Assembly (NCBI RefSeq): GCF_000002995.4
Contig: NW_025062475.1
Location: 5,522,187-5,586,186, forward strand
Reading direction: 5' to 3'
Length of the DNA: 64,000 bases
DNA from: Brugia malayi
Taxonomy: Eukaryota > Nematoda > Chromadorea > Rhabditida > Onchocercidae
Position numbers and translations under genes: made by a program. This document shows positions 22,109 to 62,682 of the stretch, piece after piece. Within the stretch, counting starts at the first letter, position 1. Every line of letters begins with the position of its first letter. The notes under the pieces were generated by a model that did no database searches, was not told the DNA's origin, and saw only the letters and a program-made list of their open reading frames with translations.

Positions 22109-22182
22109 GCCGCCGTAGCTCAGTCGGTTAGAGCGTGGGTCTAATAAGCCCAAGGTCGCAGGTTCGACCCCTGCCGGCGGCA
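22109..22182 (+). tRNA. tRNA-Ile (anticodon AAT), copy 2
   Basis: Base-for-base identical to the copy at 21383. The flanks are different, so only the gene body is shared. TTTT at about 22197-22200 is the likely terminator. Confidence 0.97.
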
Positions 22183-22287
22183 CGCAAAGTCGTGGCTTTT
22201 GCATTTGAAATTCATGCGTGAAGAATTTTCAATTGATCTCAATTTGTCATATGATATATTAGAGAGACAAGAGAAGGAATGACAGAG

Positions 22288-22346
22288 ATATGGGTGATGG
22301 TGATGACTGTGATGATGATGATGATGGCGGTGATGATGATGATGAC
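22288..22346. repeat. (GAT)n microsatellite
   Basis: Imperfect GATGATGATGG repeat between tRNA copies 2 and 3. It is the complement type of the CAT repeat before copy 2. Confidence 0.85.
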
Positions 22347-22548
22347 ATCGAAGGAATAGCAGGTAAAAGCAAGCTGATTAGCGTTTTCTTGTTTTCTTTT
22401 TCCATTTTCGAATTTGAACTTTTTTCCTTCTTCCATTTCTGAATCTGAAGGGATATTCTTTTCTGATTCTTCTGAATTTAAATTTCATTTTTGAATTCAA
22501 ATTATTCAACTGAAATCTTACAAATTGCTTTTGCAAAATGGGCGCTCC

Positions 22549-22622
22549 TGCCGCCGGCAGGGGTCGAACCTGCGACCTTGGGCTTATTAGACCCACGCTC
22601 TAACCGACTGAGCTACGGCGGC
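22549..22622 (-). tRNA. tRNA-Ile (anticodon AAT), copy 3, inverted
   Basis: The reverse complement is identical to the other two copies, with intact A and B boxes. Its TTTT terminator lies at about 22536-22539 on the complementary strand. Copies 2 and 3 converge, forming an inverted pair with a 366-bp spacer. Confidence 0.97.
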
Positions 22623-39892: not shown

Positions 39893-40714
39893 ATATGCAT
39901 CTTTTCTTTATAAAATTCATTTATACTTTCTCAAAACTTTCGAAGCAGTCCGAATTGTTCATTCGGTCATAAAAGCGATTTATTATTTTGTATATTTTTG
40001 AACCAATTTAAGCAAATTTAAATTTAAATAACATTCTAATTCTAATTTATATTTAACATTCTAATTTATTTTGCAAATTCCCCCGTGTTTTCAGAGTTTC
40101 AGATGCATTTTTACAAAAATACCTTTTTTGCTTGCACAACACAGTCACTATTTTTGCAATATCTTGTTTTTCGGTACTGATAATGAAATGATTCCAGAAA
40201 TTTGATGTCACATATCGCTCAATAAAAACAACTGCTCGAATCAAATAGCTATTTAACAAAAAACAATAAATATTTCTTCCTTTGAATTTTTTCCTCAAGT
40301 TCGATAAGTAATTATAAAATGAAAGTTCAAATCGATTGAATTGAAATAAAAGTTTCGGCAGCAACAAATTTCAATTTTATTCAACAACAAATACGCGCAT
40401 AAACAGTTTGTTTGAAGTTCTTGTTATTCAGCATAAATTATAAATAATTAATCTTAAAAATGAGACAAAACATTCATAACAAAGCTGACTGTAATCCTAA
40501 GAACGTACCATATCCTTAGGAAGGTTGACCAAAACACGTTTAACACCATTATTGCAACAAAAGAATTATTAAACGGTGCGAAGAAAGCAGAGATGATACT
40601 AACAGTGTACTTATTAGAATATTTATGAGAAACTTACTAGCTTGACTCATTTAAGTATATTTTAAATAATATCAGTAGACTTTACTCTTCGGTGGATGTT
40701 CTTCGCAAATATTA

Positions 40715-40890
40715 TTGCAGCCACTGATGTCCGTGCTGCTGTCATCACTATTATTTCCGTCGCCAATAACAGTGTTACCATCATCACCATTAATATCGTC
40801 AATAATGTTGCTCATGTCATCACCACCATCACTACCACTAATGTTCATGTTACGGTCATCACCACCAGTATTATCGTCTCCAGTAATGTT
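40715..40890. repeat. Degenerate CAT/CAC trinucleotide repeat
   Basis: An ATCACCACCATCACTACC-type array with many substitutions, similar to the CAT repeat beside the tRNA genes. Confidence 0.75.
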
Positions 40891-41041
40891 TATGCTTCTT
40901 GAAAATTCCTTAAAAACACAATTTTCTTTTACTCTTTTCTGACATAATTATGCTATTGGCGTAAACTCAGAAAATTACCGTAACGAATCCCTCGAAATTA
41001 TGACTAATGTGAGTATGTTGATAATGCAAAAAAAATGTGTT

Positions 41042-41815
41042 GGATGGAAATCGCGCCGTTTTCATCGTTGCAAGACGTTTCCGAAATTGGTACCTTAATT
41101 AATCAAAAGATGTGATTTTAAATGCAAGCATACATTTCAACGAATGAAGTTAAACATAATAGAAATTCAAAATAGAATATATATTTCCGATTCATAAGAG
41201 AAGGATTCATTAAATTTTTACGAACCTTAATATTTCCTCGATTTCCGTATTTGACTTACCTTTTGTTGACAGATACAAAATGAAAACCAGGTAAATTAGA
41301 GACAGATGCAAGTATGCAATGAATTCTAGATAAACTACATTTTTCTTTTGAATTAAATAATCTTCATTTTATCCAAATACTTCATAATTTCAATAAAATA
41401 TTTTCCACGATAATTTGAAAAGCAAATATTTTATGAATTTTGGTCTCTGCTATCTCTCTTTAAAGCAAAAATGCGAAACGATAACTTTCACACTTTTAAA
41501 ATGCACCCTATAATACATTTTAGGACGATTTTTTCCAAATTTGTAACAACATTTATATTATTTCGTATATTTTTAAGTATTATCATACTTTTATATATAT
41601 ATATATTTTTTTTTTTGGAATTTTTAGTTATTGAAAACAGTTCCTATCACTTCATTGGTTTGTCACCAAAGCTTTTAACAAATTGTCCTTATGTCATCAT
41701 TGACACAACATTGCCTCACTTGGTAATATGCTTTCCTGTTAATAATTCCACCATGATTCGTTATTATGCTCAAAATGGAAAGTATTGTGATATTTGAAAT
41801 AAGAGACTTTGAACC
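41042..41815. repeat. Left copy of diverged direct repeat flanking the palindrome
   Basis: Blocks match the region just right of the palindrome in the same orientation: 41042-41095 with 50680-50725, 41270-41500 with 50805-51055 (shared CAAATACTTCATAATT and GAAAAGCAAATATTTT), and 41727-41812 with about 51407-51490. Insertions and substitutions separate the blocks, so this duplication is older than the palindrome arms. The first block contains a decayed minus-strand copy of the secreted-protein first exon, with ATG at 41063-41065 reading MKTARFPSN before it degenerates. Confidence 0.8.
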
Positions 41816-41884
41816 AAACTATTATTCTCATTCTATTTTATAGTCAGTTGGTTAATAATACAAATTCAAATTTCCCCATTTAAA

Positions 41885-41930
41885 TATTGCACAAAATAGT
41901 AATAGTGATGTAAAGAATGGAATCAAACGC
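41885..41930 (-). pseudogene. Decayed fragment of the secreted-protein first exon
   Basis: GCACAAAATAGTAATAGTGA followed by GTAAAGAATGGAA matches the signal-peptide coding stretch at 50648-50682 in the same orientation, with several changes. The start codon is gone. Confidence 0.6.
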
Positions 41931-42654
41931 TTTGAGGGAGAGATTCTCGGTTCAAATGTGAAGCTAAAAGCATATTACTGGGAGTATATCAAAATTATGA
42001 AGGACTCTGAGTGGTAAGCCAATAAAGTAATATCAGTCAGCAAATCATCCCAGCAGACAAAAACTTTCTAGCAGATAAAAACTTATAGAAACTTTATAAA
42101 GGTTCTCAAAAAAATATTGAGAACTCGAAAATATTCCAAAAAAAACGCTTTAAAAAAATAAAAATTCGACTCGTACACTTTACACCTGTTATTTTCATTA
42201 GCAAAATATTTAAAAATGTTTAAAAAAAATGTGAAAACATTTCAAAATACAGAAACAATTTGAGCATAGTTCAATTTCTTACCAGAAAATATTTTTTTTT
42301 ACAATTGGGATACATTGAGCAAAGATTCGGTACACTTATATTATTAGTAACGTCGCAAAGATTACTTCTCGTAATTTTTGTGAATTTGCATTGCTATGAT
42401 TCAGATTATTTTTTCTTTCAAATTCAATGATCTTTGCCCAAAGCGAATGCATACCAAAAAAAATATTTTTGCAAAACTTATTGTTTCTCAATTTGTTTCC
42501 ATTCTTTTTTTTTTTTTGTATATTTTTGAATGTTTTACTGGTGAAAACAATTTCGTCGATATATATGAGCAACTGGATGCGCCAGTCGATTTCATTCAAA
42601 CTGACAAATAAGTGTATTCTGTGGAATAGTTCCCAGTAAATTTTTTGCGAAGTT

Positions 42655-42690
42655 TTATGTTATCTTCTGAAATCTCGTGCTTTTCATCGT
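42655..42690 (-). pseudogene. Second decayed copy of the secreted-protein first exon
   Basis: The minus strand reads MKSTRFQ from the ATG at 42685-42687, then hits a stop after ten codons. It matches the intact MMKSARFP start and its CTCATAA leader. It lies about 180 bp from the intact plus-strand copy at 42867, facing away from it. Confidence 0.65.
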
Positions 42691-42866
42691 TATGAGATTC
42701 TGATTAAAGAATTCAATTTCTTTATGCGATTTGTGTTTAAAAGATCTTCAAGATAATTTCATTTTACTGGGACCAATCAAAGTCTTGATATACCCTCACT
42801 GATACGGTCTTTTGAACCGAGAATATCTCCTAATCTCTTTAGGTATAAATTTCGGAAACTCTCATA

Positions 42867-43473
42867 ATGATGAAAAGCGCGAGATTTCCATTCTACACAT
42901 CACTGTTACTGTTTTGTGCTCTTGGTGTGACAATGTTGTTAGCAGAATCACATGAATACTTCCAGGTAATTTTCAGTCTCATCGATGTTTCTCGTTTTTC
43001 CTGCAATTTGTCTCAAAATAAAAAATGGTTTCTTACCCTTATCTAAAATCCAATTTACACATTTAGTGCATTGTATGAAAAGAAAACTGTGGGTTGTGAC
43101 GAATTTTCAATTTCCAATAAAATAAAAATTCATTGAAGAAATCTTATAACTTTAAAATGAGCGATCAAGACGATGACAGTTCCTCAGAGGAAGAACCCAC
43201 TAATGATTTTAACCTTGAAAGTTGGGTCCAATCAAACGATTACAGTAATACAAATCGACAGATGGTGCCACTGAGGTAAGCCTACTTTTTTCCTACAAGT
43301 AAAGCTTTATGATGTAAGTGTTTGTAGGCAGCTAATTAAAGAAAAGAAAACGATAAAATTTTAACGACTATGGCTGTTATACCTCTGATTGATTCTTCTT
43401 TTTTAGTCGTATGCGTCCGATTAATTTCACGGCCGCTAATATTTTGTTCAGAAGAGTTAATTATGCGTCTTAA
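42867..43473 (+). CDS. Predicted small secreted acidic protein, 3 exons, 100 aa (left-arm copy)
   Basis: Not a family I recognise. Proposed exons: 42867-42965, 43139-43275, 43407-43473, with agreeing phases. Exon 1 is a clear signal peptide: MMKSARFPFYTSLLLFCALG, then VTMLLAESHEYFQ. Exon 2 is strongly acidic (MSDQDDDSSSEEEPTNDF, then NLESWVQSNDYSN). Exon 3 is short and basic (SRMRPINFTAANILFRRVN). The donors (CAG|GTAATT, GAG|GTAAGC) and the last acceptor (TTTTTTAG) are good. The exon 2 acceptor (TTGAAG) is weak, so exons 2-3 might instead be a separate intracellular gene starting at the ATG at 43157. Several decayed copies of exon 1 nearby show a local gene family. Confidence 0.55.
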
Positions 43474-45305
43474 TCAACGGATTTACAGAAGCACAAAACT
43501 TTTGTTTCATTATATTCGTGATGTTTGTTGCTGAAAAAGTTGAAATTTTTTATTATTAACATTTTTGATGCCAAATTATTTTCATTTTAATATAATCGAT
43601 TTCATTCTTATTTTGTAATCATTTGACGAACTGATAAAAAGATGCAACAGAGGAAATATTTGCTGCTTAATTAATCAGCTGTTCGAGTCGAGCATGAATG
43701 ATATTGTAATATGCATTTTAACGCCATTACTGCTCAGAATCGCATACCTACGATCTGACAGAGAAATGGAGATAATCAGATTCGAATCACCGATGTAATC
43801 ATATTGATTTGATATATAACTTCTTCATTGATTATTGATCAAATATTTCACTATCCAGCAATGTCCAGATTGTTTCATATATTTTGCATAACTGAAACAA
43901 ACGCAATATTCTTTAAACAATAAGGTGAAATACTTAACATGACAGAATTTTTTGAATGGAAGCTATCATTTCAGATTGGTTGGAATTAAATGACCAAAGA
44001 TTCAAACAGTTTTTAATCTTCTGACTCGCATCATTTTTCATGCTTTTTCACTCACATTGTCATTTTCCTACCATTAAATTGACAGTTGATGAATCACATG
44101 ACAAAGAGCATATTTTGTTGAGGTGAAAATCTATTTGCTATCTTTTGTGATTGCAGTTTTGATTTAATTTCTCATAGTAATGAGAAGCATTAACTGTTGT
44201 TAGAACTCATAGTTAGCCATTTGGTGATATGATATGATATAATATAATAGAGAAAATAATAGTCTTAATTAATTTAGGATTTGTATAGATTGCTTAGTTA
44301 AGATTTTGTAATATTCTCTTCCTTTTAAGACTTTTGATGAGATTTTGGCAGTTTAGAAGTTACAAGCAATGATGTTTGGAGTATTCAACTCTCAATTTCG
44401 ATGAGTGAAACATTTACTTCATTGTTCAGAAATGTTGACTCTACACAATCGATGAATAACTTTCGTGTGTCAGATAGGTAATTTGATGTAACAATTTGGT
44501 GCAACGTTTTTCAAATCTATCTAACTAATTCTCCATGTCGTGCAAGCGTCTTTATTCTATCGTTAGCAAAAATGAATATGTCAAATACCTGGAAATTTCG
44601 TCATGAAGCAAAAGCAAAAGCAGCGCACAGAGACATATTTAACGGCTTAACACTTTAGTTCCTTTTATTTGCTATATAGAAATTTAAAAAAGTAATTCAA
44701 ATTTCGTTTCAATTTAGAAATTTTTGATAAATTTTATTCTTTTTTCAAATGTCAAGTATTTGTCATTTTAATTAGGAGAAATTTTATCTAATAAACTATA
44801 AAGAATATAAAAAGGAATGCAAAAATGACACATTATTATAAGCACGCATAACTTATTATATTTAAATTATAAAGATCGATTTACACGAATAATATTCGAT
44901 TTGATAAGCTAGAAATTATTAAATTATCGTCTATTCACTCGTTTTTCTTTAATATTGTTGTACTTAAGATTGTTTATCCTTTTAGAATATTGAGGCTCAA
45001 AAAAAAAAAAAAAATTAAGGTTCAGGAAAAAATGACATGTTAAAAGAATTCAGTCTTGCTAATCTCAGCAAAAAAGTTCCACGCCATTGTTTTGCATATT
45101 GTAAACGACAAGTGGTCGTCAGTATGTTTTTAGCAGATCAACAGTTATGTTTTTTGTTTCAAATACACGCAAAAACAAGCAAACAACTCGTGATCTAAGT
45201 TACCTGAAATGCGATGTGATAAGTTTATTTTATTAACTTAGACATTTTTATATCAAATTACGTTAATTAACTATCAATGCCAGAACAGAAGTATTTCAGA
45301 ATAGC
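43474..45305. other. Left-arm interior, mostly noncoding
   Basis: AT-rich sequence with no intact gene. 43976-44105 resembles the leader or intron segment of the zinc-finger gene in the same arm (shared GACCAAAG-TTCAAACAGTTTTTAATCT). It therefore probably marks the 5' part of the decayed copy that continues at 45306. Confidence 0.6.
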
Positions 45306-45566
45306 GAGAATATGACTGTCCTTACCAGGATGCACTTTAAAAACGAAGAATTACAATGAAATCATCAAACATAAGGAGATGTTTGATGAACCTTTTATTT
45401 ATGAACGCAGAGGACCTGATCGTGGATTAAAATTTAATCATTCATCATCATTGTACAGTCATCAGGAGAAATGCAAGTAGCAAAGACTGTGGAAAAAATT
45501 TTCAACGTTCAACGTTGAGTATAAGCTGAATATCCACAAGAAAGGTTGCATCGGAACTCAACGTTA
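45306..45566 (+). pseudogene. Decayed C2H2 zinc-finger copy (left arm, older)
   Basis: Reads EYDCPYQDAL, then after a frame break KTKNYNEIIKHKEMFDEPFI and FNHSSSLYSHQEKCK, a stop, and a third-finger remnant ending NIHKKGC. It parallels the better-preserved zinc-finger gene in the same arm (YECPHVGC, KTKIYKKYIAHRKTH, FNHKSTFVNHQETH). Several Cys and His ligands are lost. Orientation is opposite to that gene, so each arm holds an older inverted pair. The mirror copy is at 48003-48263 (-). Confidence 0.7.
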
Positions 45567-46023
45567 ATTTGGATAATCTAGCAAAAATCTAAACATGTTT
45601 GCTAATTTGAAATTAATGCACATATATGGAAATATGTTAAGAAACATCCATGACTTTTTATGGTAATATAAAATTCGTGATCGATTTCATTTCAGGCAGA
45701 TGAATGCTTGAGAATATCGTTAAATCAAAAACTTTATTTGTTTTCTCATGTATTTAAAAATTTTTTTTGTAAATTTTCCGCTGCGATGAAATCAGATCCA
45801 GTCCTCGATTCTTTGCTGTTTATTCGTGTATTCATTCCATTTCTTGAACAGTAGGTACAGCTTATCTTTTCTTATGTTGAATATAAACGAGGATGATCTA
45901 TTTTTTTTTGGTTAAATACTGCATTCCTATTGAATTTTGTACTGCTGTAGAACGGGTCTTTCTCAGCTATACATTTAACTCCGAGTAGGCAAACATGTTT
46001 GAAGTTCTGTTAAATTTGTGAAA

Positions 46024-46530
46024 CTAACGTAGAGCTTTCGTACAATGCTTCTTGTGAGATCTCAAATTATTCTTACAGTTGAAAATTTTGCCACAGTTTC
46101 CTCACTTCAGTTTAGGCCCGTGTGTTTCCTGGTGATTGACGAATGTTGATTTATGATTGAATGTTCGCCCACAACCGGACGTTTTGCATTCATAAATAAA
46201 AGGTTTGTAGTGTGTTTTCCTGTGAGCTATGTATTTCTTGTAAATCTTTGTTTTCGTAGTACATCCGACATGGGGACACTCGTAATTTTCCTCATCTGAA
46301 TCAGCTATTAGTTTAACAATAGGAAAATTAGAATGGAAGGAAAGAAGTAGAGTAATGATGCAAATGAGACAGATTAAAAACTGTTTGAACCTTTGGTCGT
46401 TTACCATTTTTGTCATCTTAAGAATTTCACTTTGTTGTTTATTACAACGATGACATAAATCATTTGGTTCAGCTTTCTTCTTTGCATCGCTTTGGCTGAG
46501 AATGGGACTATCTTCGCGACACTGGTAGCA
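46024..46530 (-). pseudogene. C2H2 zinc-finger gene with disrupted third finger (left-arm copy)
   Basis: Mirror image of 47039-47545, described there. In this copy the codon at 46471-46473 reads Ala (GCT on the minus strand), where the right-arm copy has Val. The in-frame TGA is at 46102-46104. Confidence 0.65.
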
Positions 46531-46557
46531 TCCAGTCGAGTAACTTGTGATTCTCAG

Positions 46558-46930
46558 ACAGCTCTAATACACTTGACAAAATAGATTTAGAGCCAATTCT
46601 TGGTTTAAACACTAATGTCTCTGAAAGTTTCTCTCAGCTATTCGAAAATGAAGATTTAAGCATTGAGGAATACGAATTCAAACCTGATGACATTACTGCG
46701 CGAAATTCGAAGTTATCTGTTCTGGAAAATCCCTCCATAAGAAGTAACATTAAGCTTTTGCTCCTAATATATGCTTGAAGTTTAGTCGTATGATTTTTAA
46801 ATTACATTAATTAATTATCAAATGATATGACGGAATATGTTAATTGAAAAAAACAAATGTCACAAGTGAGTTTTTCAGATATGAAAAAATAAGAGTGCCC
46901 CCATGTCGGGCGTGCTGTACATTTCAGATT
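46558..46930 (+). pseudogene. Acidic exon plus broken zinc-finger fragment across the left junction
   Basis: The exon 46558-46743 (acceptor TTCTCAG, donor A|GTAACA) reads SSNTLDKIDLEPILGLN, then NVSESFSQLFENEDLSIEEY. It crosses the palindrome's inner junction at 46595 without interruption. After a short intron, an acceptor TTTTTCAG at 46871-46878 leads in matching phase into NMKK, a stop, then ECPHVGRAVHF. This corresponds to EENYECPHVGC of the arm zinc-finger gene with a nonsense codon and the second Cys changed to Arg. So the spacer holds a further, truncated member of the same family. Confidence 0.6.
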
Positions 46931-46973
46931 GATAAATTTGTTTGAAATATTGCTATTGGAAACTAACAAGAAC
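46596..46973. other. Palindrome spacer (378 bp)
   Basis: Unique sequence between the arms. It contains the rest of the acidic exon and the zinc-finger fragment. There is no hairpin, so the arms are not directly abutting. Confidence 0.9.
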
Positions 46974-47038
46974 TGGCTCTAAATCTATTTTGTCAAGTGT
47001 ATTAGAGCTGTCTGAGAATCACAAGTTACTCGACTGGA

Positions 47039-47545
47039 TGCTACCAGTGTCGCGAAGATAGTCCCATTCTCAGCCAAAGCGATGCAAAGAAGAAAGTTGA
47101 ACCAAATGATTTATGTCATCGTTGTAATAAACAACAAAGTGAAATTCTTAAGATGACAAAAATGGTAAACGACCAAAGGTTCAAACAGTTTTTAATCTGT
47201 CTCATTTGCATCATTACTCTACTTCTTTCCTTCCATTCTAATTTTCCTATTGTTAAACTAATAGCTGATTCAGATGAGGAAAATTACGAGTGTCCCCATG
47301 TCGGATGTACTACGAAAACAAAGATTTACAAGAAATACATAGCTCACAGGAAAACACACTACAAACCTTTTATTTATGAATGCAAAACGTCCGGTTGTGG
47401 GCGAACATTCAATCATAAATCAACATTCGTCAATCACCAGGAAACACACGGGCCTAAACTGAAGTGAGGAAACTGTGGCAAAATTTTCAACTGTAAGAAT
47501 AATTTGAGATCTCACAAGAAGCATTGTACGAAAGCTCTACGTTAG
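47039..47545 (+). pseudogene. C2H2 zinc-finger gene with TGA in place of a cysteine (right-arm copy)
   Basis: Likely two exons. The first (to about 47138) has a CxxC pair repeated: GCYQCREDS and LCHRCNKQQ. The second (from about 47274, acceptor GATTCAG) encodes the fingers. Finger 1: YECPHVGC with HRKTH. Finger 2: YECKTSGC with HQETH (both C-x4-C). Finger 3: after PKLK a TGA (47465-47467), then GNCGKIFNCKNNLRSHKKHC and a TAG at 47543. Restoring Cys at the TGA would complete a C-x2-C finger, so a TGT/TGC to TGA change is the simplest reading. An unspliced reading across the putative intron gives a hydrophobic stretch that is probably not real protein. It may be a pseudogene, or a shortened two-finger protein. 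Identical nonsense codons in both arms mean the mutation predates the duplication or was copied by conversion. Confidence 0.65.
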
Positions 47546-48002
47546 TTTCACAAATTTAACAGAACTTCAAACATGTTTGCCTACTCGGAGTTAAATGTAT
47601 AGCTGAGAAAGACCCGTTCTACAGCAGTACAAAATTCAATAGGAATGCAGTATTTAACCAAAAAAAAATAGATCATCCTCGTTTATATTCAACATAAGAA
47701 AAGATAAGCTGTACCTACTGTTCAAGAAATGGAATGAATACACGAATAAACAGCAAAGAATCGAGGACTGGATCTGATTTCATCGCAGCGGAAAATTTAC
47801 AAAAAAAATTTTTAAATACATGAGAAAACAAATAAAGTTTTTGATTTAACGATATTCTCAAGCATTCATCTGCCTGAAATGAAATCGATCACGAATTTTA
47901 TATTACCATAAAAAGTCATGGATGTTTCTTAACATATTTCCATATATGTGCATTAATTTCAAATTAGCAAACATGTTTAGATTTTTGCTAGATTATCCAA
48001 AT

Positions 48003-48263
48003 TAACGTTGAGTTCCGATGCAACCTTTCTTGTGGATATTCAGCTTATACTCAACGTTGAACGTTGAAAATTTTTTCCACAGTCTTTGCTACTTGCATTT
48101 CTCCTGATGACTGTACAATGATGATGAATGATTAAATTTTAATCCACGATCAGGTCCTCTGCGTTCATAAATAAAAGGTTCATCAAACATCTCCTTATGT
48201 TTGATGATTTCATTGTAATTCTTCGTTTTTAAAGTGCATCCTGGTAAGGACAGTCATATTCTC
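48003..48263 (-). pseudogene. Decayed C2H2 zinc-finger copy (right arm, older)
   Basis: Mirror of 45306-45566, with the same frame break and stops. Confidence 0.7.
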
Positions 48264-50095
48264 GCTATTCTGAAATACTTCTGTTCTGGCATTGATAGTT
48301 AATTAACGTAATTTGATATAAAAATGTCTAAGTTAATAAAATAAACTTATCACATCGCATTTCAGGTAACTTAGATCACGAGTTGTTTGCTTGTTTTTGC
48401 GTGTATTTGAAACAAAAAACATAACTGTTGATCTGCTAAAAACATACTGACGACCACTTGTCGTTTACAATATGCAAAACAATGGCGTGGAACTTTTTTG
48501 CTGAGATTAGCAAGACTGAATTCTTTTAACATGTCATTTTTTCCTGAACCTTAATTTTTTTTTTTTTTTTGAGCCTCAATATTCTAAAAGGATAAACAAT
48601 CTTAAGTACAACAATATTAAAGAAAAACGAGTGAATAGACGATAATTTAATAATTTCTAGCTTATCAAATCGAATATTATTCGTGTAAATCGATCTTTAT
48701 AATTTAAATATAATAAGTTATGCGTGCTTATAATAATGTGTCATTTTTGCATTCCTTTTTATATTCTTTATAGTTTATTAGATAAAATTTCTCCTAATTA
48801 AAATGACAAATACTTGACATTTGAAAAAAGAATAAAATTTATCAAAAATTTCTAAATTGAAACGAAATTTGAATTACTTTTTTAAATTTCTATATAGCAA
48901 ATAAAAGGAACTAAAGTGTTAAGCCGTTAAATATGTCTCTGTGCGCTGCTTTTGCTTTTGCTTCATGACGAAATTTCCAGGTATTTGACATATTCATTTT
49001 TGCTAACGATAGAATAAAGACGCTTGCACGACATGGAGAATTAGTTAGATAGATTTGAAAAACGTTGCACCAAATTGTTACATCAAATTACCTATCTGAC
49101 ACACGAAAGTTATTCATCGATTGTGTAGAGTCAACATTTCTGAACAATGAAGTAAATGTTTCACTCATCGAAATTGAGAGTTGAATACTCCAAACATCAT
49201 TGCTTGTAACTTCTAAACTGCCAAAATCTCATCAAAAGTCTTAAAAGGAAGAGAATATTACAAAATCTTAACTAAGCAATCTATACAAATCCTAAATTAA
49301 TTAAGACTATTATTTTCTCTATTATATTATATCATATCATATCACCAAATGGCTAACTATGAGTTCTAACAACAGTTAATGCTTCTCATTACTATGAGAA
49401 ATTAAATCAAAACTGCAATCACAAAAGATAGCAAATAGATTTTCACCTCAACAAAATATGCTCTTTGTCATGTGATTCATCAACTGTCAATTTAATGGTA
49501 GGAAAATGACAATGTGAGTGAAAAAGCATGAAAAATGATGCGAGTCAGAAGATTAAAAACTGTTTGAATCTTTGGTCATTTAATTCCAACCAATCTGAAA
49601 TGATAGCTTCCATTCAAAAAATTCTGTCATGTTAAGTATTTCACCTTATTGTTTAAAGAATATTGCGTTTGTTTCAGTTATGCAAAATATATGAAACAAT
49701 CTGGACATTGCTGGATAGTGAAATATTTGATCAATAATCAATGAAGAAGTTATATATCAAATCAATATGATTACATCGGTGATTCGAATCTGATTATCTC
49801 CATTTCTCTGTCAGATCGTAGGTATGCGATTCTGAGCAGTAATGGCGTTAAAATGCATATTACAATATCATTCATGCTCGACTCGAACAGCTGATTAATT
49901 AAGCAGCAAATATTTCCTCTGTTGCATCTTTTTATCAGTTCGTCAAATGATTACAAAATAAGAATGAAATCGATTATATTAAAATGAAAATAATTTGGCA
50001 TCAAAAATGTTAATAATAAAAAATTTCAACTTTTTCAGCAACAAACATCACGAATATAATGAAACAAAAGTTTTGTGCTTCTGTAAATCCGTTGA

Positions 50096-50702
50096 TTAAG
50101 ACGCATAATTAACTCTTCTGAACAAAATATTAGCGGCCGTGAAATTAATCGGACGCATACGACTAAAAAAGAAGAATCAATCAGAGGTATAACAGCCATA
50201 GTCGTTAAAATTTTATCGTTTTCTTTTCTTTAATTAGCTGCCTACAAACACTTACATCATAAAGCTTTACTTGTAGGAAAAAAGTAGGCTTACCTCAGTG
50301 GCACCATCTGTCGATTTGTATTACTGTAATCGTTTGATTGGACCCAACTTTCAAGGTTAAAATCATTAGTGGGTTCTTCCTCTGAGGAACTGTCATCGTC
50401 TTGATCGCTCATTTTAAAGTTATAAGATTTCTTCAATGAATTTTTATTTTATTGGAAATTGAAAATTCGTCACAACCCACAGTTTTCTTTTCATACAATG
50501 CACTAAATGTGTAAATTGGATTTTAGATAAGGGTAAGAAACCATTTTTTATTTTGAGACAAATTGCAGGAAAAACGAGAAACATCGATGAGACTGAAAAT
50601 TACCTGGAAGTATTCATGTGATTCTGCTAACAACATTGTCACACCAAGAGCACAAAACAGTAACAGTGATGTGTAGAATGGAAATCTCGCGCTTTTCATC
50701 AT
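50096..50702 (-). CDS. Predicted small secreted acidic protein, 3 exons, 100 aa (right-arm copy)
   Basis: Mirror of the left-arm gene, with exons 50702-50604, 50430-50294 and 50162-50096 on the minus strand and an identical predicted product. Unlike the left copy, the sequence upstream of its ATG matches the region upstream of another family copy (41063), so this copy is more likely to keep its native promoter. Confidence 0.55.
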
Positions 50703-50799
50703 TATGAGAGTTTCCGGAATTTTACCCGAACTAAAAAAAATTAGTTTTATGAAATTTTCACAAATTTTATTTGGTTGATTTGTGTGCTGGAGTTGTCCA

Positions 50800-51500
50800 T
50801 TATTGTTTTGCAGAAACGGAAATGAAAACGGAGTTAGAGGGAAGCAATAAATTTGTAATGAATTCCAGAACAATTTAATTTCTTCTTTGAACTGAATAAT
50901 CTTTTTTCTATGCAAATACTTCATAATTCCAATAAAATAATTTTGGCGATGAATTGAAAAGCAAATATTTTGTGAATTTTGGTCCCTGCTGTCCCTCTTT
51001 TGGTCCCTCTTTAAAGCAAAAAAAGTGAATTTGTAACTTTCACTTTATATAAATGCTTCGGAAAATATTTTTATGGTACGAATTTTATTAAATTTTCAGT
51101 AACTCTCAGATTATGAATTTTCAAAATTTTGCTACAGAAAATAATTTGAAAACGAATAAGTATGTATAGCAATCAAATTTCATTTAACTCACTGATAACT
51201 ATGTCTTCAAGGAATGTTTTCCTCTTCTTTTTTTTGCAAAGTTCTGTAAACTTTGGATGTGTTTGATAGTCGCATATTCCCCTTGTAATTAACTAATTAG
51301 GATTTGGACTTGAAAGATGTGATTTTCATTATTTTATTTGTTTATCACTCACAACCTTTTGTAATTTTCATTATGATTACATCTTCAAAGTTCTATAAAC
51401 TGATAATGTGCTTTCCCGATGATAACAGCAACATTGACTTCTAATATTTCAGAGCGAGAAGTATTATGGTATTTGAAATAGGGAATCAAATTGTGACTAA
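50800..51500. repeat. Right copy of diverged direct repeat flanking the palindrome
   Basis: Matches 41270-41812 in the same orientation in separated blocks. It includes a local tandem of TTGGTCCCTCTTT-like units at 50980-51015. Lying upstream of the minus-strand secreted-protein gene, it probably represents that gene family's promoter region. Confidence 0.8.
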
Positions 51501-53516
51501 TTGCTCAGAAGAATTCTAAACCATTCCAATTCACATTCGTTTCTTGCCTTGGTAAAATTTCCGTATTTCTTATATACAGTTAAATTAAACATTGAAATTT
51601 TGAAATATTTCAATTGTCACTCTTTTATTGAACTGTATTTAATTTTCAGAAGAGTGTACATAACAATGAAAAATTTTTTCGTAAAAAAGCATTATTGACC
51701 ATCGCATCTATCGATTATGTGACAGCACCAGGAATATGTGACAACACCAGAAAAATAATTTGTCAGCAAATTTTAAGATGTTTAAAAAAAGTAACAAGAA
51801 GTTTCGGCAAAAATTATAATTAACTTTCATGCTTTTAGTATAATTCATTACATTCAAAATTCCGAAATAGGAAAAGCTTAACTCAGAAGTATCACTTCCT
51901 GTTCGTTGTGATTAACATATGGTTAGTATGTTGTTATGATAACATATATCATAGCCGTTATCCTAAAATTCCTGTTTGTATCAGGAAATCATCTTTTTTG
52001 GTATTTTAAACTTTCTTTCTTCATTAAAACTCTTTTGTTTTTTATTTGTTTCGATTCAAGAAGTTTTCTTGATTTGTTTTTATTTTTTACTTAAAAATGG
52101 TAAAACATCGAAGTTATAAAATATCAATGAAAAAGTATTTTTTTTTATATAAAAATAAATGAAAACTTGTCAGTGTGGCTTTTTTCACCTTATCACTTTG
52201 CTCCTTCAATACATAAAACTGCTGGGGATTTTCCATGCTATCGACAAGTTTCTACTATTTTTTTTTTCGTATTTTATTTTTGTTTTTGCCTCAAAATATT
52301 TCTGAATTAGTGTTTTAAAAACACTAAGCGAAAATAATTTTTTGTGCGAATCCCTGTAAATTTAACTTCAGAAAGTCTCAAGCATTGGTTATGATTGTTT
52401 TGATTGATTCAATCAATGAGCGATCAGATGAATGATGGATCAACAATCAATTTTAAAACGATGTCTTAAATTACTTGTTTGTTCAGCACTTTTACACCAC
52501 TTCAAGTGTGATCAAAAATTATTATCATTGATCAGATTACTCCAAAAATTTTAAAGTTTGTTAAATCATAATTGGATGTTATCAAAATATACAAATAATA
52601 CTAGGCGTAATATGAATGAAAATCTCATGTGCAATAAATTTCTATAACAGTATAATAAGTCGACATATAATAATACAAATTTATGAATGGGGGGCGAATT
52701 TTGTATGCTTTTGATAAAGATAATAAAAAGCAAACAAAATTTCAAATATATCAGTGGAAATCTTGTATTTCACTTTTAGTTCAAATTTTAACAATAAACT
52801 GATGAAAAAAGAAAGCTCACTAAGACAATGAAAAAAAAAAAAAATGTCAGAATTGATTCACATTACTTGCTTCTATTTCACTAACAATTATAGTAGTGTC
52901 ACTGTAATGAAATTTCTTTCGCATCTTCGCTGAAAGTAATAATTTCCTTCAACTGAAAGATTAACGACAAAATAGCAGAAATTTCAAATATTCTAAAATT
53001 AGTTTATTAACAGTAAACACATCTTTATTCTATAAATCAAAAAAACGCGATTTTCATTATTAATTATCCTCCAAATTTCAGGCATAATGTAGAAAGATTA
53101 AAGTATTATAGTAATAATCTTCATTAGAATAATTTGAGCAGAAATTATTCACTTTCTTTTTCATACAAATACTTATAAAACCTTAATTTCAAATAAATTT
53201 TTATTCCTTTTAAAAAAAAATTTTTTTAAAATAAAACTCTTAAGAATCAACATTTCATTCCTTTACTCAATGACTATAAATATTTTCCAAATTTCTCATA
53301 TAAGATCATCATGAAGTAAATGAATGTTGAATTCATTAGCTGTTTTTTTTTTTTTTTTTGTTTTCTCATTTTGCATTGCAAAAAAAAAAGCAAAAACATT
53401 GCTGAGAAAAATCTAAAGCACAAACTTTGAGGTAAATCACTAATTATGGTAGGCGCTAATATTACTCAAGTATTTGAAAACCATACACTTTTCGATATAT
53501 AATGCTTGAATTCGAA
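51501..53516. other. Intergenic, nothing recognised
   Basis: AT-rich with several A/T runs (52830-52843, 53342-53359). No coding exon, RNA or repeat family recognised. Confidence 0.6.
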
Positions 53517-55915
53517 TCATGATAACCACGTTTTAAATAATAATTTCGAATTCTCGTAGCTCACAAATAGGCAACCAGTTGCACAGAATGCACGGATCAA
53601 TGTAATTGTTAATCCATTATATAATGTTCGTATACCTTAACAGAACAACGCGCAGTTGAATAGATCAACTTATGACTGTTACTACTACAAGAACTCCAGC
53701 TTATGACAAATATAAAATATGATTTATAAAACTACTACTATGAAAAATGATTGCAGAATTGTGACACATTTCTGGATGTAGAATTTTAAAAAGTCTACAT
53801 TCATAATATGATTTTTCTGATTTTCAAAAGAACAGTAAAGGACAGCAAAATACTAATAATGAATGAAATACCTTCATTTTTGACAATATTACGAAATATG
53901 TTAATGAACCTTCCTGAGCCAGTAACTTGCATACGAGATTTAATCACATCTACTGGATAAACAGCACTCCATAATACAACACCACCAATTCCACCGGATA
54001 GTGCTGTCCGCAAAATGCCTAGAACAATAGAAAAAAAGTTAGGAATAAAGATTAGAAGCGAGAATTAACCTAAAGAATGAAAAAAATTTAAAAAGAACGG
54101 GAAAAAATGAAAGTTAGGATTGAAGATTAGAATTGAGAATTAATCTAAAAAATGGAAGAAATTTAAAAAGAACTGTTAAAATGCTCACAAGATACAATAA
54201 CTTTTTCTCTCTATTACAAGAGATATAAACAGCACATTATAAAAGCAAACCAATTTCAGATTTCGACTTTCCCTCCGGTGTCAAATAAAGTCTGGATAAC
54301 TCATATGCACCGAAAAAGAGAAAGTACCCGACCGTTTCACGGCATAAGGTTGATAACATACCCGTATAAAATGCCTTTAAGCCATCTGTTCGATACATAT
54401 CACGACATACTGAGAATGGAGTACTAGAAACTTTGCTTAAATTAGCTGCAATGTAATTTCACTTCTTGAATAAACTTTTTTTAACGGCATAAAACAAGAG
54501 TAATATGAATATAATTACAGCTAATTTAGACCATAAATCCGAAGTTAAGAAATCACCCGAAAAATAAGATGAAACAATTTCAAAATTAAAATAGAAGCAA
54601 CATTTGAAATTATCCTAAATGAGAATAATTTCATTACCATTAAGCTATTTTATAACTAAAAACTATTTTATAACTAAAAAATAACAATTCGAAAATTTCA
54701 CACATAAATGGGACAATCCAATTTCACCATTTAATGTCTAACTTAATAAATATGTTATTGCTTGAAATTTCAGAAATATGAAAATAAGCTTCATAAATAT
54801 GAAAATTTTACTTTGCACCAAGAAATCAAATATATATTACGCGTACCTCCTTAATCCAGGAAAAGCTTCCCTCTGCGCTTGCAATTTACATTTGACAAGT
54901 TCAGTCGGACAAATAGCTACCGCTGCAAAAACGGATGCCAATGAACCAGACAAAGCATTTTCAAATGGTGTCATATCTTCCAATTTTGATCGTCCAATAC
55001 AAAATGCAACCATCTAAGAATTTAATGTTGAATTCAAAATTAAATGTTATTCAAATCCACACTGACTACATAGAAATTCTAAGATGAAGGTTAATATAGA
55101 CTCAGAATATCAAGACAAAATTAAGAGAACAATCCAATTTTATTATAAGGTTCCCTTAACCTGAACTTCGCACCCTTGCATGTCATATCTGAATTTGAAT
55201 AATAATTTACTACCATATGTATTAACTCGTAACATAAAAACGATGAAAAAATGATTAATTAACCTTTTTACAATATCCGTAAGCAGCAAAAAGAATAGCA
55301 TTTTCGGCGACATTTGCTGTTAAGGCCGGTATAGCACCTATAACACTTACAATAACCAGTAAGTATTCAAATTAAAATTCTACATTCATTTTGTAATTTA
55401 AACATATTTGGACACAGTTGAAGAGATTATACAGCTAAGGAAACAAAGCAAAGTCACAATATTGCTCTAGCCAACTTGATATTTTTTATATTTCGCTTTA
55501 GTAAAAGAGGAAAAAAAAAAAAAAAAAAAACGAACAAACCTGCGTATAATCCTCTGATGCCATCCAGACGTAAAACTGATTCAAAACACGCTATAGCTTT
55601 TGGATAAAACGTTGGAAATGTCTGCATTTTAACTTTGACAGTATCTAACGGCTGTCCAGCAGCGACATTTATAATACCACCTTCAAAAATTGTCATCCAT
55701 CATAGCAATATCGTTATTAAATATTAAATTCAATAAGAATATCGTTATTAAAAATATTAAGTATTAATAGTCTAGATGTTACTGTAGCCAACAATTTCTA
55801 ATTAGTAAACTTGAAACAAGGAGATACCTACTGTACCAGCAGCTAAATCAACAATACCGTCTTTGATATGACCAATACTATTCGAGTATGAAACGTCTAC
55901 TTCACATTTAGCCAT
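53517..55915 (-). CDS. SLC25A15: Mitochondrial ornithine carrier, SLC25A15/ORNT1 type, 7 exons, 302 aa
   Basis: Inner-membrane carrier that exchanges ornithine (and related basic amino acids) across the mitochondrial membrane. Exons on the minus strand: 55915-55828, 55680-55540, 55337-55264, 55013-54847, 54423-54251, 54018-53872, 53635-53517, all in phase. 302 residues against about 301 in vertebrate ORNT1. The three carrier repeats each show the Px[DE]xx[KR] signature: [28 protein letters not shown] and [12 protein letters not shown]. Further close matches to ORNT1 are [36 protein letters not shown] and [16 protein letters not shown]. An in-frame ATG three codons upstream (55922-55924) is an alternative start. 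The gene lies downstream of the SUMO protease gene on the same strand, but 840 bp apart, so an operon is not implied. Confidence 0.94.
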
Positions 55916-55924
55916 CCAAATCAT

Positions 55925-56754
55925 GAAATGACATATGATAAATTATAAGCTCTCTGCTTTTATATTTTGTAAATTTGCAGGAAAAAGAAACAAAAACTGA
56001 ATATGTTTATAGCTATCGCGTGCTGCTATTAGGATAGCCAACAATGCTGAATGAAAAAATGATCGTAAAAGTTTAACTTCATGATTTTCTGATGAACAAT
56101 TTACTCAATGTGAAATAAAATAATGTGACAGAACAAAAAAAGGTTTAACTTTGCAGTACAATAATATACAAAATGCTACTTAAAATTTCCTAAAAATTTA
56201 AACATTATAAGCTAAAAGAAAATATCAGTCTGTCTATTTCTTCATTAATCACTGAAATTATTTACTGTTATTGAAAAGGCATGAAAAAACAATGAGCATC
56301 TTTTTGTAAGATATTCTTTTTTTAGAAAAAAGACTTATAGAAAGATGTCCATAATGTTAGCAGTCATAATTACTCTGTTCGTATATCATCATTCAGTGCG
56401 ATTTGCAAAGTCAAATCAAAAATTTTCAAAAAGGCATCAAAAATGAATAAAATTTACAAAATGGACACCATGTTCTGTGTAAAATGTATGACAAATCATC
56501 CTTCAAAAAAGATGGAACATTTTTGATTGAAGTCATAACTTATTTTACATTTAACTGATTCACATAACGCTGAAAAATTCAGCTATCATTTTCTTTGACT
56601 ACCCTTTTTTTTTTTTTGTTTGGGAGCATTAAGCTTCGAGCTTTGGAAGTATCTATTATTCTATTATAAAAGAACATAGGTAGAACAGTGAGGTGAAGCA
56701 GCAAGGGCCAGCCGAGATACCGATCTCACTACTTTTGTATATTACAATGAAGGA
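55925..56754. other. Intergenic, carrier 5' side to ulp-1 3' side
   Basis: No gene seen. A T-rich run followed by GTTTGGGAGCATTAAGC at about 56606-56634 resembles the T-tract plus GGGAGCATCAAGC at 29588-29627. The part next to 56754 should be the 3' UTR of the SUMO protease gene. Confidence 0.6.
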
Positions 56755-59700
56755 CTATAAAAGTTTTTTTCGACATATTTCATAGACCATCCGCTCACGA
56801 AAATATGGCATGTGATCCTGACTGAAAGAGATCTGAGCACGCCGCGCTGCATATTCTGCAAATTTACATGCAAACATTCCACAATCACTACCATTCATTT
56901 GTTGTGGAATATCCTAAAATATGACTCCATTTGAGTTTATTACGTAAAAACTATTCCACAGATCTCTTTTAGCTCTATCATTCTTCCAAAATTGAACAGA
57001 AACTTCGAAAGCTTAAATTTATTCATTAGCTGTTAAAAAACTAACGTCACGATTCACAAGCTGCCAATCACTAAGGTCGAATTCTTTCCTTCTTTTGTCT
57101 AACGACTCTTCACAAAGATATTCGCTGAAACAAAACAAAGTGTTGAAAGTGAGGATAAGTTTTAGTATTCAATACCAATATAAAAATGTAACTTGGACAA
57201 CAGTACTTCAAACAATAGTTGAAACATCATTAAGTTTTATAAACAGTAGGTTATCTAAAAAGTACTAAAATACAAATTAAAGGCAGATAACCTCATAACA
57301 TCCAGGCAATAGTCATTGCTCCCACCCATTGAATCATAATAATCAATTATCCTATTTTTGAAATCAATAACCTGAAAAAACCGCAACAAATGTGTAGGCG
57401 CTAAATAATCCTCACAACATAAAACAATTTTTTCTCGGACAAAAACAATAAAATCTGAAAAATGAAGCACTTACAGCAAGACACCAATGAGCACCCAAAT
57501 GAACAGGAATCAATAATAACTCGTACGAAAAAATGTCAATTTTGCGTGTCCAACGTCTAATAGATGCATATCCCTTACTACTTAAAGTAGAATAAAAAAA
57601 TGAGTTGAACGCATACACCTAAATCAGCATGAAAGGTTAATCCATTGAAGTTAAAATCAAATATCTTAATTTTGATTCATTAATATTCAAAAATAAAAGG
57701 TAAATTGCTTAACTGCTCAATAATTTTTCAAGAAATTACGAATTCTTCAAGCAATAATTAAAAGGAATGCAAACTGCTGGAAAGTTAAACATAAAACTTT
57801 TTTGTTATTAGAAAGCATTCATTAGAAAATTATACATGAAATTATATCAGTCAAACCTAGATGAGCAGATTTTAAATTCAAACAAGATTTTGCTGATTAC
57901 TTTTACTCTAACGAATAGTCCTTACTTCTTATTATCATTATTAGTATTTCACAACAATTAATCTATGTTTCAATTATTTGTAATATTTACACATTACAGC
58001 ATAAGCTTTTAAAATATTAAACAATACTCTATAACTTCAAATTCACCTTTGGTAAATTTTCATCATTCTGTGAACGTTCACAGATGAGATTCATATAAAA
58101 ATTGATTATTTCATCGTTAAGCCAATCAAGTCCTTTCAACGTTAGCAAGTCTTTCCGTGTTATTTCATCAGATAATTTCTCACTCAACGGCAATTTTCGA
58201 TTCCAAGCACGTTCTACTATCAGTAAAGCTTCATCATCAAGTTCTATAATGATAAATCTTGAGTTTTGATGACCCACCAATAACGGCAAACTTTTTTAGA
58301 ACAGCTGGAAATTTCAGCGTTACAACTTTTCGAATTAAAATTACTAGTCTTTGCTAATAAATAAAAAATATACCCGGAAATTCATCCTTCACTTTTCGCG
58401 GACGAAAAACGTATCCGGTGAGAGTCAGTTTTTTCCTCAGCTGTTCTTCCAAACTCAATTCCTCATCCCGTCGTGCTTCTTCACTGCAAACAAATAAAAC
58501 GCATGCTGTAACATACCACTATAAATAAAAATTTTAGAATCGATAAGTCAACAAGAATTATTACATTAAACGTTTCTGAATCTTCAGTTCTTTGGCACGG
58601 CGATCCCTTAAAGCAGCCTGTTGATGATGCATTGCTAAACGATGCTTTGCCACTAATTTCGTATTTTTTTCTTTCTCCCACAAAGCTTTGAAATCATCAC
58701 GGTGCTTTGTATTTCCAATAATACAAGTTTCTTCCCTGTAATGTCATGGAATTTCAAATAAAGCAACCAGATGATAAATTACAAATCAAAATGATATGTC
58801 TTACACGCACGATAGTGGAAAAAATAAATATCTTTAAAATGCGACCTGCTTCCCTGAATGTTGTAGTTCGAATACTCACTGGCTTCGCTATCACTACTGG
58901 TTTTTTTTTCGACAACAATATTATCCGAGCTATTCGTTGCCGTGGATCCTTTTCGTGATAAATTTTCTGATGAAGTACAAACGGCATTTAATGCAGACTG
59001 GCCTCTTTGTAGTAGTTCCAGATAATTTGTTTTCTTGAATGATTGCTTCCTTAAATTAAAAAATTAATTTTTATGGAAATTTCTGAAATAATTTATAAAT
59101 TTCCATAAAACTGAAGCAAAATATACTTTTCATTATTGTAGAGAAGTGTTACTTCTGTTTTAAGGATGCCCGCTTCTTCCAGAAATTTCCTGTAATGCTC
59201 TTTGCCTTCCTTGTCGACTACCTGAAATCTCAAAAAGTTTGGATAATTACATCAATTAAAATTGAAAATATAGAGACACTGAATATTTAAATGGATATTC
59301 TGATTTAAGGGTTATTGAAATTATTGACAAGGAACAAAGTGAAATGGACCAAAACGCATATGATGAAGAGTGCAAATTACAATGCAGTAAAAAATAATAG
59401 CTTGATATCACTATTACTGATAATAATCCATGCAAGGCAGTAAATTCTTGCTTTTTCGTTTTTTATGAATAAATCTGACAAACCATAAAAATGGATGTAC
59501 TTACATTAACCTGTCCACCAAAGCGTCCTTTTATGTCAGAACCCAGATTCACCTTATATGGTGAGTAGCGACTTGATAACGTGTTCCTATAATTATTAAA
59601 ATTTGAACTACAAATCTGGAAAAGAGTAAAGTTGAAATGTTGCAGTTCCTTTTTCTTTTGTATGTTCAGATTAGAGAATTTCCAATCTAATTTTGTTTTT

Positions 59701-60659
59701 ACAAATATTAAACAAAGAACCAAAAAAGAAAAATACCTGGCTGAAGATAATGTTCGCCGACGTTCCCATTTATCCGACAAAATGCTTGAACCTAAATATC
59801 CCAATGAAAAAAAAAGAAACATCTTACTAGTATGATTAACATTATATTCTTGCTTTAATAACTCTTTCAAAACGTATTGCACAAAATGATAATAATAAAA
59901 AAATATACCGTCTGCATTAGACTCTTCTCAATTTAGCTTTAGGAAATGAATGCGAGTGAACATACAGGAATAGAAATTAGAGAACCTTCTCGTGAATGAG
60001 ATGGTGAAATCTGTTGACTTTTACTGTGCTCTGGTTGTTCTGACTGTAAATCGTACCTCAGTGAGTTATCTTTCACACTGTTTTGCCAAAAAGCATCCTC
60101 ATTGGAGGCTGAAAATATTTCATCCTACATATTTCATCCGGTTGTTCTATTTCCCAAAAATTTCACCAACAATCGAAAATTTGTTTTTCCAAATGAACAG
60201 TGCTTCAAAATCGACTTCTAATTCCTTGTGAATTCATTTATCATTAATTGGCTGTTTAATGCAAATCAAATTTTTATCCTCCCCTTTCATTCGCCTTTTA
60301 CAGCATATTTTAATTTATAGAAGTTCAATGCTCTTCTTGTTATAAATGAATAAATTAACTTTTACCCCATGTTGGTGCTGCGATAAATGCGTTTAATGAC
60401 TTCTTTTTTTCAACTGAAATTTTGCCTTTCGAATCTTTTATTTTGTCTTCCTTTTCGTTTTCCTTGTCTTCCATCTGTCCAGCGGTGCTTCCACCAGAAT
60501 ATAAATCTAAAAACCAGTGGAAACTCGAAAAACTTTTGAGAAGAAAAAGCAGATAGAAATAATGTGAATAAAAAATGTGAAAATAACCTTTTTTTGAAAT
60601 CAATGAATACAAAATAGAATCCTCTTCTTCGATAATTACTGGGTCGTCGTCGTCACCAG
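56755..60659 (-). CDS. ulp-1: SUMO-specific protease, Ulp1/SENP1-2 type, 14 exons seen, 5' end missing
   Basis: C48 cysteine protease that matures SUMO and removes it from target proteins, mainly in the nucleus. Minus-strand exons: 60659-60588, 60506-60366, 60108-59986, 59791-59737, 59586-59505, 59221-59127, 59049-58846, 58735-58565, 58483-58374, 58243-58047, 57618-57475, 57371-57292, 57124-57046, 56913-56755, about 570 codons with unbroken phase. The C-terminal catalytic domain is very close to SENP1: [20 protein letters not shown], then [11 protein letters not shown] (His), DYYDSMGG (Asp), [14 protein letters not shown] (Gln and Cys) and [19 protein letters not shown] at the end. The N-terminal half is charged and of low conservation, as usual for the family. 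The 58846 donor was chosen because the stronger-looking site at 58880 breaks the frame. The first exon with the ATG was not found upstream of 60659. Confidence 0.94.
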
Positions 60660-62682
60660 CTAAACGCAATATATATTTCTCCAAGCAAAACCAATAATAA
60701 TAAATGATGGCAATGATCGGTGTAGCACATCATCTCATGATAGTGCAGTAAGAACACCACAAAATGAACGAAAAAAAAAAATATATATCATTCACGAGAT
60801 TACTTTATTTTAGTGGTAATCCTGGCTGTCTCCTTTATATAATACATCTTTCTTTATCCAGAATTCATGTCACAATATTTTATGAAGTGAAACAACTATT
60901 TAACCAAAGTTACAAAAGTAAGTTACAGAACTAAGGACTTTCTTTCACTTTCCTGAAACTGCTGGAGCGCATTTCCTGGCACAACATATGAGTTGTCTGA
61001 AGTGAAACAATTGTCTGGTCTATTTAACCAAATTTTTTTCTAAATTTCCCACATCTTAAATGAATCAAAACATCATACTCATTAATTCATTAGTTCCTTT
61101 CTTGTTGAGTTGCTGCGCAGTGCCATTTATTGGTCCCTTACTCAAACGTCCAGAACAAGTAGCATCAGAATTTGAAGTGCATGTTTTCTCACTTGCATGT
61201 GACTTAACTGATGGTCGAAAAAGATTTGTCACTGGTGCAACAAATCTTGAGATAAAACCTACAAATTTGATGCTTCCAAGGTCTCAAAATGTCTCAAATG
61301 TCAACCAGATAATTGAGAAATGCATCAAATAATGCAGTTGTTTTCTGAAATTTCAAAGGAACTAAATGACTGTGCTATATACAAAACAAACCGAAAAAAC
61401 CAGAGTTGAGGCTTTTTTTTTTTTTCTTCGATGTAATAGTAGAAACTATTTGTTGCCTGACAGGTTCCAATCTTCTCCGTTTATTTCCATACACCGAATA
61501 TCGATATGACCGATTTTCCATTCTGATTTTAGACATCGATGCAAACTGCTAAAAAGATTTTGCAACCGAAACTCTGCACGTATAATTTAGCAAGTTTGTA
61601 ATGCCAGGCTTTAAGTATCACAACTACTGCGTTAATATAGCTCAGTGATCCAAGACGAGAAACATGTAACTCGATCTTATTTCATTCAAACCTAAGTAAG
61701 CCAATCGCCAAGTTCCAAGCAATTCGAATGATTACCTACAGTCGACAACTTCATCACTCCTTGTTTTAAAAATATAAATAAACTTAAATGAACTATGCAA
61801 TACACTTATTTCCAAGACCACTTCAAGTTTCGGATTCTCTAAAATTAATTGTAACAAATGGATGATACTCCAGTCACAGCAGACATTAATACTGTAAAGA
61901 CATCAAAACAACCGCTCTTATTTTTAGTTTTATTGAAAAGCAAAATAAAAATGGTAAAGTTTGGAAAACATCGAATTTGTAAAACACTTCTATCAGTTAC
62001 GTGAAAATGATGTGCCTGATCTATTCTTGTGAAACGTTTCATTTTTTTTCATACTCAAAATGGATGAATCTTAATGTGTTTTTTAGCAATATCATAGTTA
62101 CGAGAATGTGAAAAAAAACCCAAAATATCATCTATGTAACCATTAAGATCTTCTCGATGGTTAGTTGGTGAAGTATACTATGAAATTCGATCTCTATTTT
62201 GCCTTTTTTTTTCGGTAACGACTATAGCACGTACTTACTGATAGTTTGTTCAAGCAAAACAGCACCATAGCCAATTCCAAATTTTTTCAAAATTTACTCA
62301 ACTGGTAAGAAAATCCCTCACTAGCCACAAAGAAATATTCCGAACTAAATGTTGTTATTGCTTGTAAAGAGGACATGCACAAAACTAGAACGAACAAACA
62401 AACAAACAATGAATTACTGACAGTTTCTGAAATGTTTTGGAATTAATGACAGACCAGAGTAATGTTATTTCTCGGGTGCGATGGTCAAAAGCCAATCGAC
62501 ATTATTATTTTAACAATTCCTAAGAACGTTTCTGATGTATTTACCAAATAAATGACAGAAACAAATGAGAAAAAATTCAATCAATTAACGACTTTGAAAA
62601 ATCAACTTTTGTATTCTGACAGAATTCTGGCGAATTTTAACTAAATATATTCAAATAAACAATGCCAATTTTGAAATTCAAA
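60660..62682. other. Region between ulp-1 and prp-19
   Basis: It probably contains the missing first exon of the SUMO protease gene, but none could be fixed. The plus-strand open stretch at 61060-61332 is 90 codons of fairly balanced composition without a recognisable domain. The left copy of a 145-bp repeat lies at 62388-62531. Confidence 0.5.
62388..62531 (+). repeat. 145-bp repeat, copy 1 (3' of prp-19)
   Basis: Begins AACGAACAAACAAACAAACA and ends TTTAACAATTCCTAAGAACG. A second copy at 62979-63116 differs at only a handful of positions. Copy 1 lies past the stop codon of prp-19. Confidence 0.95.

Follow-up and report, generated by a model that had tools for sequence, protein, structure and literature searches.

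A near-perfect palindrome on chromosome 1 of Brugia malayi, probably a recent inverted duplication

When two long stretches of a chromosome mirror each other almost letter for letter, it must be asked whether one was recently copied from the other, whether both are old and have been kept alike, or whether the mirror is a product of assembly. This question is raised by a palindrome found within 64,000 nucleotides (nt) of DNA from the filarial worm Brugia malayi, the whole of which was analyzed and is referred to here as the window. The palindrome lies on chromosome 1, an autosome, and we consider it probable, as judged from the sequence, that it arose there by a recent single inverted duplication, through fold-back or template-switching repair. 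Positions without a prefix are window coordinates, and chr1 coordinates follow the numbering of the contig, NW_025062475.1 (the window being 5522187-5586186).

Arms, spacer and junctions

The initial annotation had described a large near-perfect palindrome, and an inverted-repeat search of the window recovered it, with arms at 42847-46602 and 46967-50722 that are 3756 nt each, lie 364 nt apart and agree at 3753 of 3756 positions. Compared position by position, the arms keep the claimed mirror register (a position sum of 93569, with no insertions or deletions) throughout, and the poly-A run, said to be of equal length in the arms, is 16 nt in both. Only a single mismatch had been claimed, whereas the full arm alignment, a check that the initial annotation itself proposed, counts three differing sites. 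As the first and third of these lie 6-7 nt from the arm ends, one interior difference is left in 3743 base pairs (bp). The spacer of 378 bp given earlier is the same structure, but the arms were there ended at the inner mismatch; the full spacer is 364 nt. Mirror identity outside the arms is merely 31% over 40000-42846 and 29% in the spacer, and a chance origin of the arm match is thus excluded. The features concerned are the following:

42847..46602, + strand: left arm, read as the original copy from mirror identity, an inner end colinear with a paralogue and the ancestral base at 46472
46967..50722, - strand: right arm, read as the inverted copy of the left arm from mirror identity, the derived base at 47097 and abrupt junctions at both ends
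46603..46916, + strand: ancestral part of the spacer, read as the continuation of the left arm's truncated zinc-finger pseudogene (72%, colinear with chr1:4497719-4498073)
46918..46967, - strand: apparent templated insertion in the spacer, 50 of 50 nt equal to the reverse strand of chr1:5520541-5520590
42852/50717, 46472/47097 and 46596/46973: base substitutions between the arms, from their mirror comparison
46472 (mate 47097), strand not applicable: sole interior difference, from the arm comparison

Sequence of a large C2H2 zinc-finger family makes up the inner part of the arm and the left part of the spacer; at least 150 matches to this family were scored in the genome, counting the two arms. 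One paralogue, chr1:4497719-4498073, is colinear with 46541-46913 at 72% identity, across the left junction, and the colinearity of the spacer with this paralogue holds through the left junction only; 14 further places in the genome, of the same family, match parts of 46643-46916. The left-arm base at 46472 is shared with nine of nine paralogous leader exons, and the right-arm base at 47097 differs. This count comes from an ungapped scan of fetched DNA that required agreement at 34 or more of 51 bases and set the two arms aside; leader exons at 5519550 and 5644939, which are more divergent, fell below this bound and were not counted. Since the spacer is colinear through the left junction and the base at 46472 is that of all nine paralogues, the left arm is identified as the original and the right arm as the copy. 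Going by these comparisons, the left arm together with 46603-46916 is the old sequence order, and the right arm is inverted relative to it. The initial annotation had also noted an Ala/Val difference between the arms. The underlying base difference is real, but the Ala/Val frame, a hand translation, is antisense to the leader exon of the zinc-finger family at that place.

The donor of the 50-nt insertion is the end of an upstream zinc-finger gene, about 48.5 kilobases (kb) from the palindrome. The match can be extended to 46972 with one mismatch (55 nt), and a 60-nt alignment is 95% identical; the identity with the donor ends abruptly on both sides of the 50-nt match. Other pieces shared with the upstream donor cluster are 63-87% identical, compared with 50 of 50 nt for the insertion. 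At the inner junction, AGAA is common to the donor and the arm, and at the outer junction, AATTT is common to the two flanks, with imperfect matching around both motifs. Two of the three arm differences adjoin these inner and outer junctions.

Origin of the palindrome and competing readings

The initial annotation had offered two causes for the arm identity, namely a very recent inverted duplication or ongoing arm-to-arm gene conversion. As the junctions carry the scars of a copying event, the former is preferred and better supported, and ongoing conversion is not needed. From these scars, we infer a mechanism of replicative repair. A break or stalled fork inside the zinc-finger pseudogene would have caused DNA synthesis to switch to the upstream paralogue, where about 50 nt would have been copied from the reverse strand of the zinc-finger gene that lies about 48.5 kb away. 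A second switch, via the AGAA match, would have moved synthesis onto the other strand of the left arm, which would then have been copied backwards for about 3.75 kb, to about 42853, until the copy rejoined the chromosome at an unrelated flank via the second short match, AATTT. Such a process would be classed as fold-back or microhomology-mediated break-induced replication. In terms of age, one difference in 3743 bp gives a yardstick of about 49,000 generations (Poisson range about 1,300-276,000), assuming no conversion and a mutation rate like that of Caenorhabditis elegans, 2.7e-9. Read in this way, the perfect mirror would become an interpretable mutation whose donor, direction and relative age can be identified.

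Some points weigh against a recent duplication and should be considered when referring to this scheme. Junction matches of 4-5 bp could arise by chance. A search of the right flank, to 55000, did not find the remainder of the truncated finger exon, so that the scheme needs an additional loss of sequence. Conversion would likewise give one difference in 3743 bp, and the evidence as a whole is the sequence of one B. malayi assembly.

The palindrome might instead be old, with its arms kept alike by arm-to-arm gene conversion, as has been proposed for inverted gene pairs in Caenorhabditis. In such nematode cases, arm identity is reported to reach up to 100% within a species and to be lower between species (PMC1803023), and here a single interior site differs between the arms, while the small protein encoded in them (see below) is 96% identical to its Brugia pahangi orthologue. 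Nonetheless, the 50-nt insertion in the spacer, outside the expected reach of conversion, has kept full identity with its donor, and of the three arm differences, two are found at the junctions, as would be expected after a copying event. Moreover, an older palindrome of the same zinc-finger family, at chr1:4753850-4755409 and 4755646-4757185, has already come down to an arm identity of 94.6% (60 mismatches and 24 gap positions in 1562 alignment columns). At that divergence, a 50-nt stretch would have gathered only about 2-3 changes, such that the 50-nt identity speaks weakly against great age. Taken together, upkeep by conversion seems unlikely to us. The assembly could also have produced the structure, if a read folded back, a contig end was duplicated or only one haplotype carries an inversion. 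The assembly combines PacBio data with older reads, gap filling and manual grafts (PMC7181701), there is almost no difference between the arms, and the structure is known from the assembled sequence alone. A fold-back artefact would have arms that meet without a unique spacer and without differences, whereas these arms differ at three sites and their spacer is composed of a 314-nt continuation of one arm and a 50-nt match to a place about 48.5 kb distant. In addition, 42300-46000, 46540-47030 and 50650-52650 have no near-identical match on other contigs among the best candidates scored, and the structure, at 7.9 kb, is smaller than the sheared DNA fragments of 20 kb described in PMC7181701. 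An artefact is, for these reasons, improbable. As two long inverted repeats flank a short unique core, one may further think of a transposable or foldback element with long terminal inverted repeats. Such an element would occur in several copies, whereas the outer 459 bp of the arm, the first exon of the small gene included, match only the two arms in a genome search that skips simple repeats. The arms and spacer also hold pieces of a host gene family, only six open reading frames (ORFs) of at least 80 amino acids (aa) are present in 40000-54000, the longest being 133 aa, and the two of these six that were scanned against Pfam gave no transposase match. With the outer arm sequence matching only the two arms in that search, this last reading is disfavored and, in our estimate, very improbable.

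The chromosome itself bears on a further suggestion of the initial annotation, the analogy with gene-bearing palindromes of animal sex chromosomes. Foster et al. 2020 (PMC7181701) list chromosome 1 in their Table 1 at 14,701,151 bp, and give chromosomes 2, 3, 4 and X as 14,214,749, 13,951,302, 13,467,244 and 24,943,668 bp, respectively; the predicted copy number is 2.04 for chromosome 1 and 1.19 for X. Sex linkage of the palindrome is rejected by the identity of the chromosome, and because the locus is autosomal, the analogy fails.

Gene copies and related rearrangements

The palindrome had been described as carrying genes. One gene per arm is found, while the zinc-finger pieces look broken. 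The features that follow belong to the arms and the spacer:

42867..43473, + strand: small secreted-protein gene, left copy, gene model with exons 42867-42965, 43139-43275 and 43407-43473
50096..50702, - strand: small secreted-protein gene, right copy, mirror of the left copy with exons 50604-50702, 50294-50430 and 50096-50162
46450..46916, + strand: broken zinc-finger family gene over the left arm and spacer, from family comparison
46102..46300, - strand: inverted zinc-finger exon in the left arm, an older inverted piece, with a stop before the third finger
47269..47467, + strand: its right-arm counterpart, with a stop before the third finger
43929..44094, + strand: older copy of the family's antisense 5'-flank segment, from family comparison
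45290..45673, + strand: older degenerate zinc-finger exon, about 60-68% identical to paralogues

The small gene is modelled with three exons at the outer end of each arm and encodes 100 aa with an apparent signal peptide, as judged by eye. Its orthologues are QQG55_3295 of B. pahangi (99 aa, 96% identity) and WUBG_09246 of Wuchereria bancrofti (99 aa, 89% identity), and exon 2 matches only the two arms in the genome (E up to 0.1). Merely about 14-20 bp 5' of the ATG of the right copy are included in the duplication. The duplication would accordingly have provided a second copy of the gene under new upstream DNA, along with a truncated pseudogene, and no further function of the palindrome is needed to explain the structure.

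In intact-looking paralogues of the zinc-finger family, a leader exon, whose start encodes an apparent signal peptide, accompanies an exon carrying three finger-like motifs, again recognized by eye. The leader of one paralogue has 25 matches in the genome, with some places represented by two separate pieces, and the protein collection contains nine relatives of it, from B. malayi, B. pahangi, Brugia timori and W. bancrofti. Compared with these, the gene at 46450-46916 has an in-frame stop in the leader exon, a frame change, a stop at the start of the finger exon and an exon cut at the junction. The ORF at 46102-46416 was considered as a normal zinc-finger gene and rejected, as its opening part is the antisense strand of the family's 5' flank and its finger exon is cut short by an early stop. 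By its sequence, it looks like a chimeric broken piece; against this, Pfam detects one C2H2 finger in it above cut-off. In the open frames 46102-46416 and 47153-47467, a hydrophobic stretch, the antisense of the family 5' flank, is fused to the finger exon, possibly giving a new secreted or membrane frame, or possibly being a product of chance. Microfilariae are reported to release C2H2 zinc-finger proteins (PMC2569413) and, in B. malayi, to contain many zinc-finger transcripts with predicted signal peptides (PMC2874553), and the secretory cell is described as almost the sole site of expression of paralogous expansions (PMC10319439). These published proteins are compared with the copies described here by kind of protein only.

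The older palindrome, which lies in another cluster of the family (4.64-4.79 Mb), is built similarly to the present one. Its spacer of 236 nt continues the left arm, colinear with a copy near 4658.6 kb, and its junction has a 3-bp match, GTA. The gene that donated the insertion, at 5518662-5520590, has in addition a mosaic copy at chr1:5644105-5645541, 125 kb downstream of the donor, about 71 kb right of the palindrome and about 58 kb right of the window. This mosaic holds the forward pieces 5518662-5519000 (339 bp, 99.7%) and 5519114-5520152 (1039 bp, 100%) and a reversed piece of 54 bp (98%). The pieces used by the palindrome and by the mosaic do not overlap and, as both sites hold near-unchanged pieces of one donor gene, pieces of this gene went to two places. 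That palindrome and mosaic came from one multi-switch event (germline chromoanasynthesis), with such events being a usual route of family diversification, is possible but rather doubtful. If true, the secreted zinc-finger family would have diversified by the scattering of truncated, fused and inverted copies. More generally, these cases point to template-switching repair as a way in which new and broken copies could arise in this family. The DNA surveyed for such rearrangements covered about 0.29 megabases (Mb) of the 86.8-Mb genome, chosen mostly for matching. Within chr1:4640001-4790000, blocks of a zinc-finger cluster stand in direct and inverted repeats, several of them 96-99% identical and up to about 9.5 kb long.

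Rfam, at gathering scores, and ARAGORN revealed no transfer RNA (tRNA) or structured RNA in the palindrome, and three tRNA-Ile genes far to the left of it only. These three near-identical genes, at 21383-22622, form a small inverted duplication, with two direct and one inverted within 1.2 kb. Direct repeats of 145 nt each (62389-62533 and 62976-63120) are 96% identical and 587 nt apart, and GC skew is negative (-0.10 to -0.15) throughout 52001-64000, from about 52 kb to the end of the window.

Comparison with known systems

Among the matches listed, no earlier report of palindromes or inverted duplications in filarial worms was recognized by title or abstract start, and no paper on natural C. 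elegans cases combined five of the six terms searched. The inverted repeats of Caenorhabditis (Zhao et al. 2007, PMC1803023) are likewise mirror gene pairs of nematodes, with arms up to 100% identical, and the long, near-identical inverted arms with gene copies are found in B. malayi as well. The spacers of two of those examples, 126 and 414 bp, are short like the 364 nt here. The Caenorhabditis palindrome is, however, described as present in more than one species and hence old (PMC1803023), while the junction scars in B. malayi suggest a single recent event. Palindromes of animal sex chromosomes (PMC6790999) also hold near-identical mirror copies of genes, but the B. malayi palindrome, unlike these, lies off the sex chromosomes and bears no sign of upkeep by conversion.

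Other comparisons concern inverted duplications. The youngest duplicates in C. elegans tend to be adjacent and inverted (Katju and Lynch 2003, as summarised in PMC4546093), an arrangement that matches the present one, although the B. malayi junction has a templated insertion from about 48.5 kb away. Hermetz et al. 2014 (PMC3907307) sequenced 21 junctions of human fold-back inverted duplications and reported a single-copy spacer at every one, microhomology at 13 of them and insertions at 5. A single-copy spacer that continues the original copy is also found here, with 46541-46913 colinear with the paralogue, as is a templated insertion at the junction (50 of 50 nt), a feature frequent in fold-back events and not obligatory. 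The human spacers measure 766-70,466 bp, compared with 314 + 50 nt in B. malayi, and the human duplications are large, many of them beside terminal deletions (PMC3907307), whereas that of B. malayi is 3.75 kb and internal to the chromosome. As far as these analogies reach, the B. malayi palindrome fits the human fold-back duplications and the young inverted duplicates of C. elegans, and it looks like a clear, well-preserved example of an already known type of mutation, rather than a sex-chromosome palindrome.

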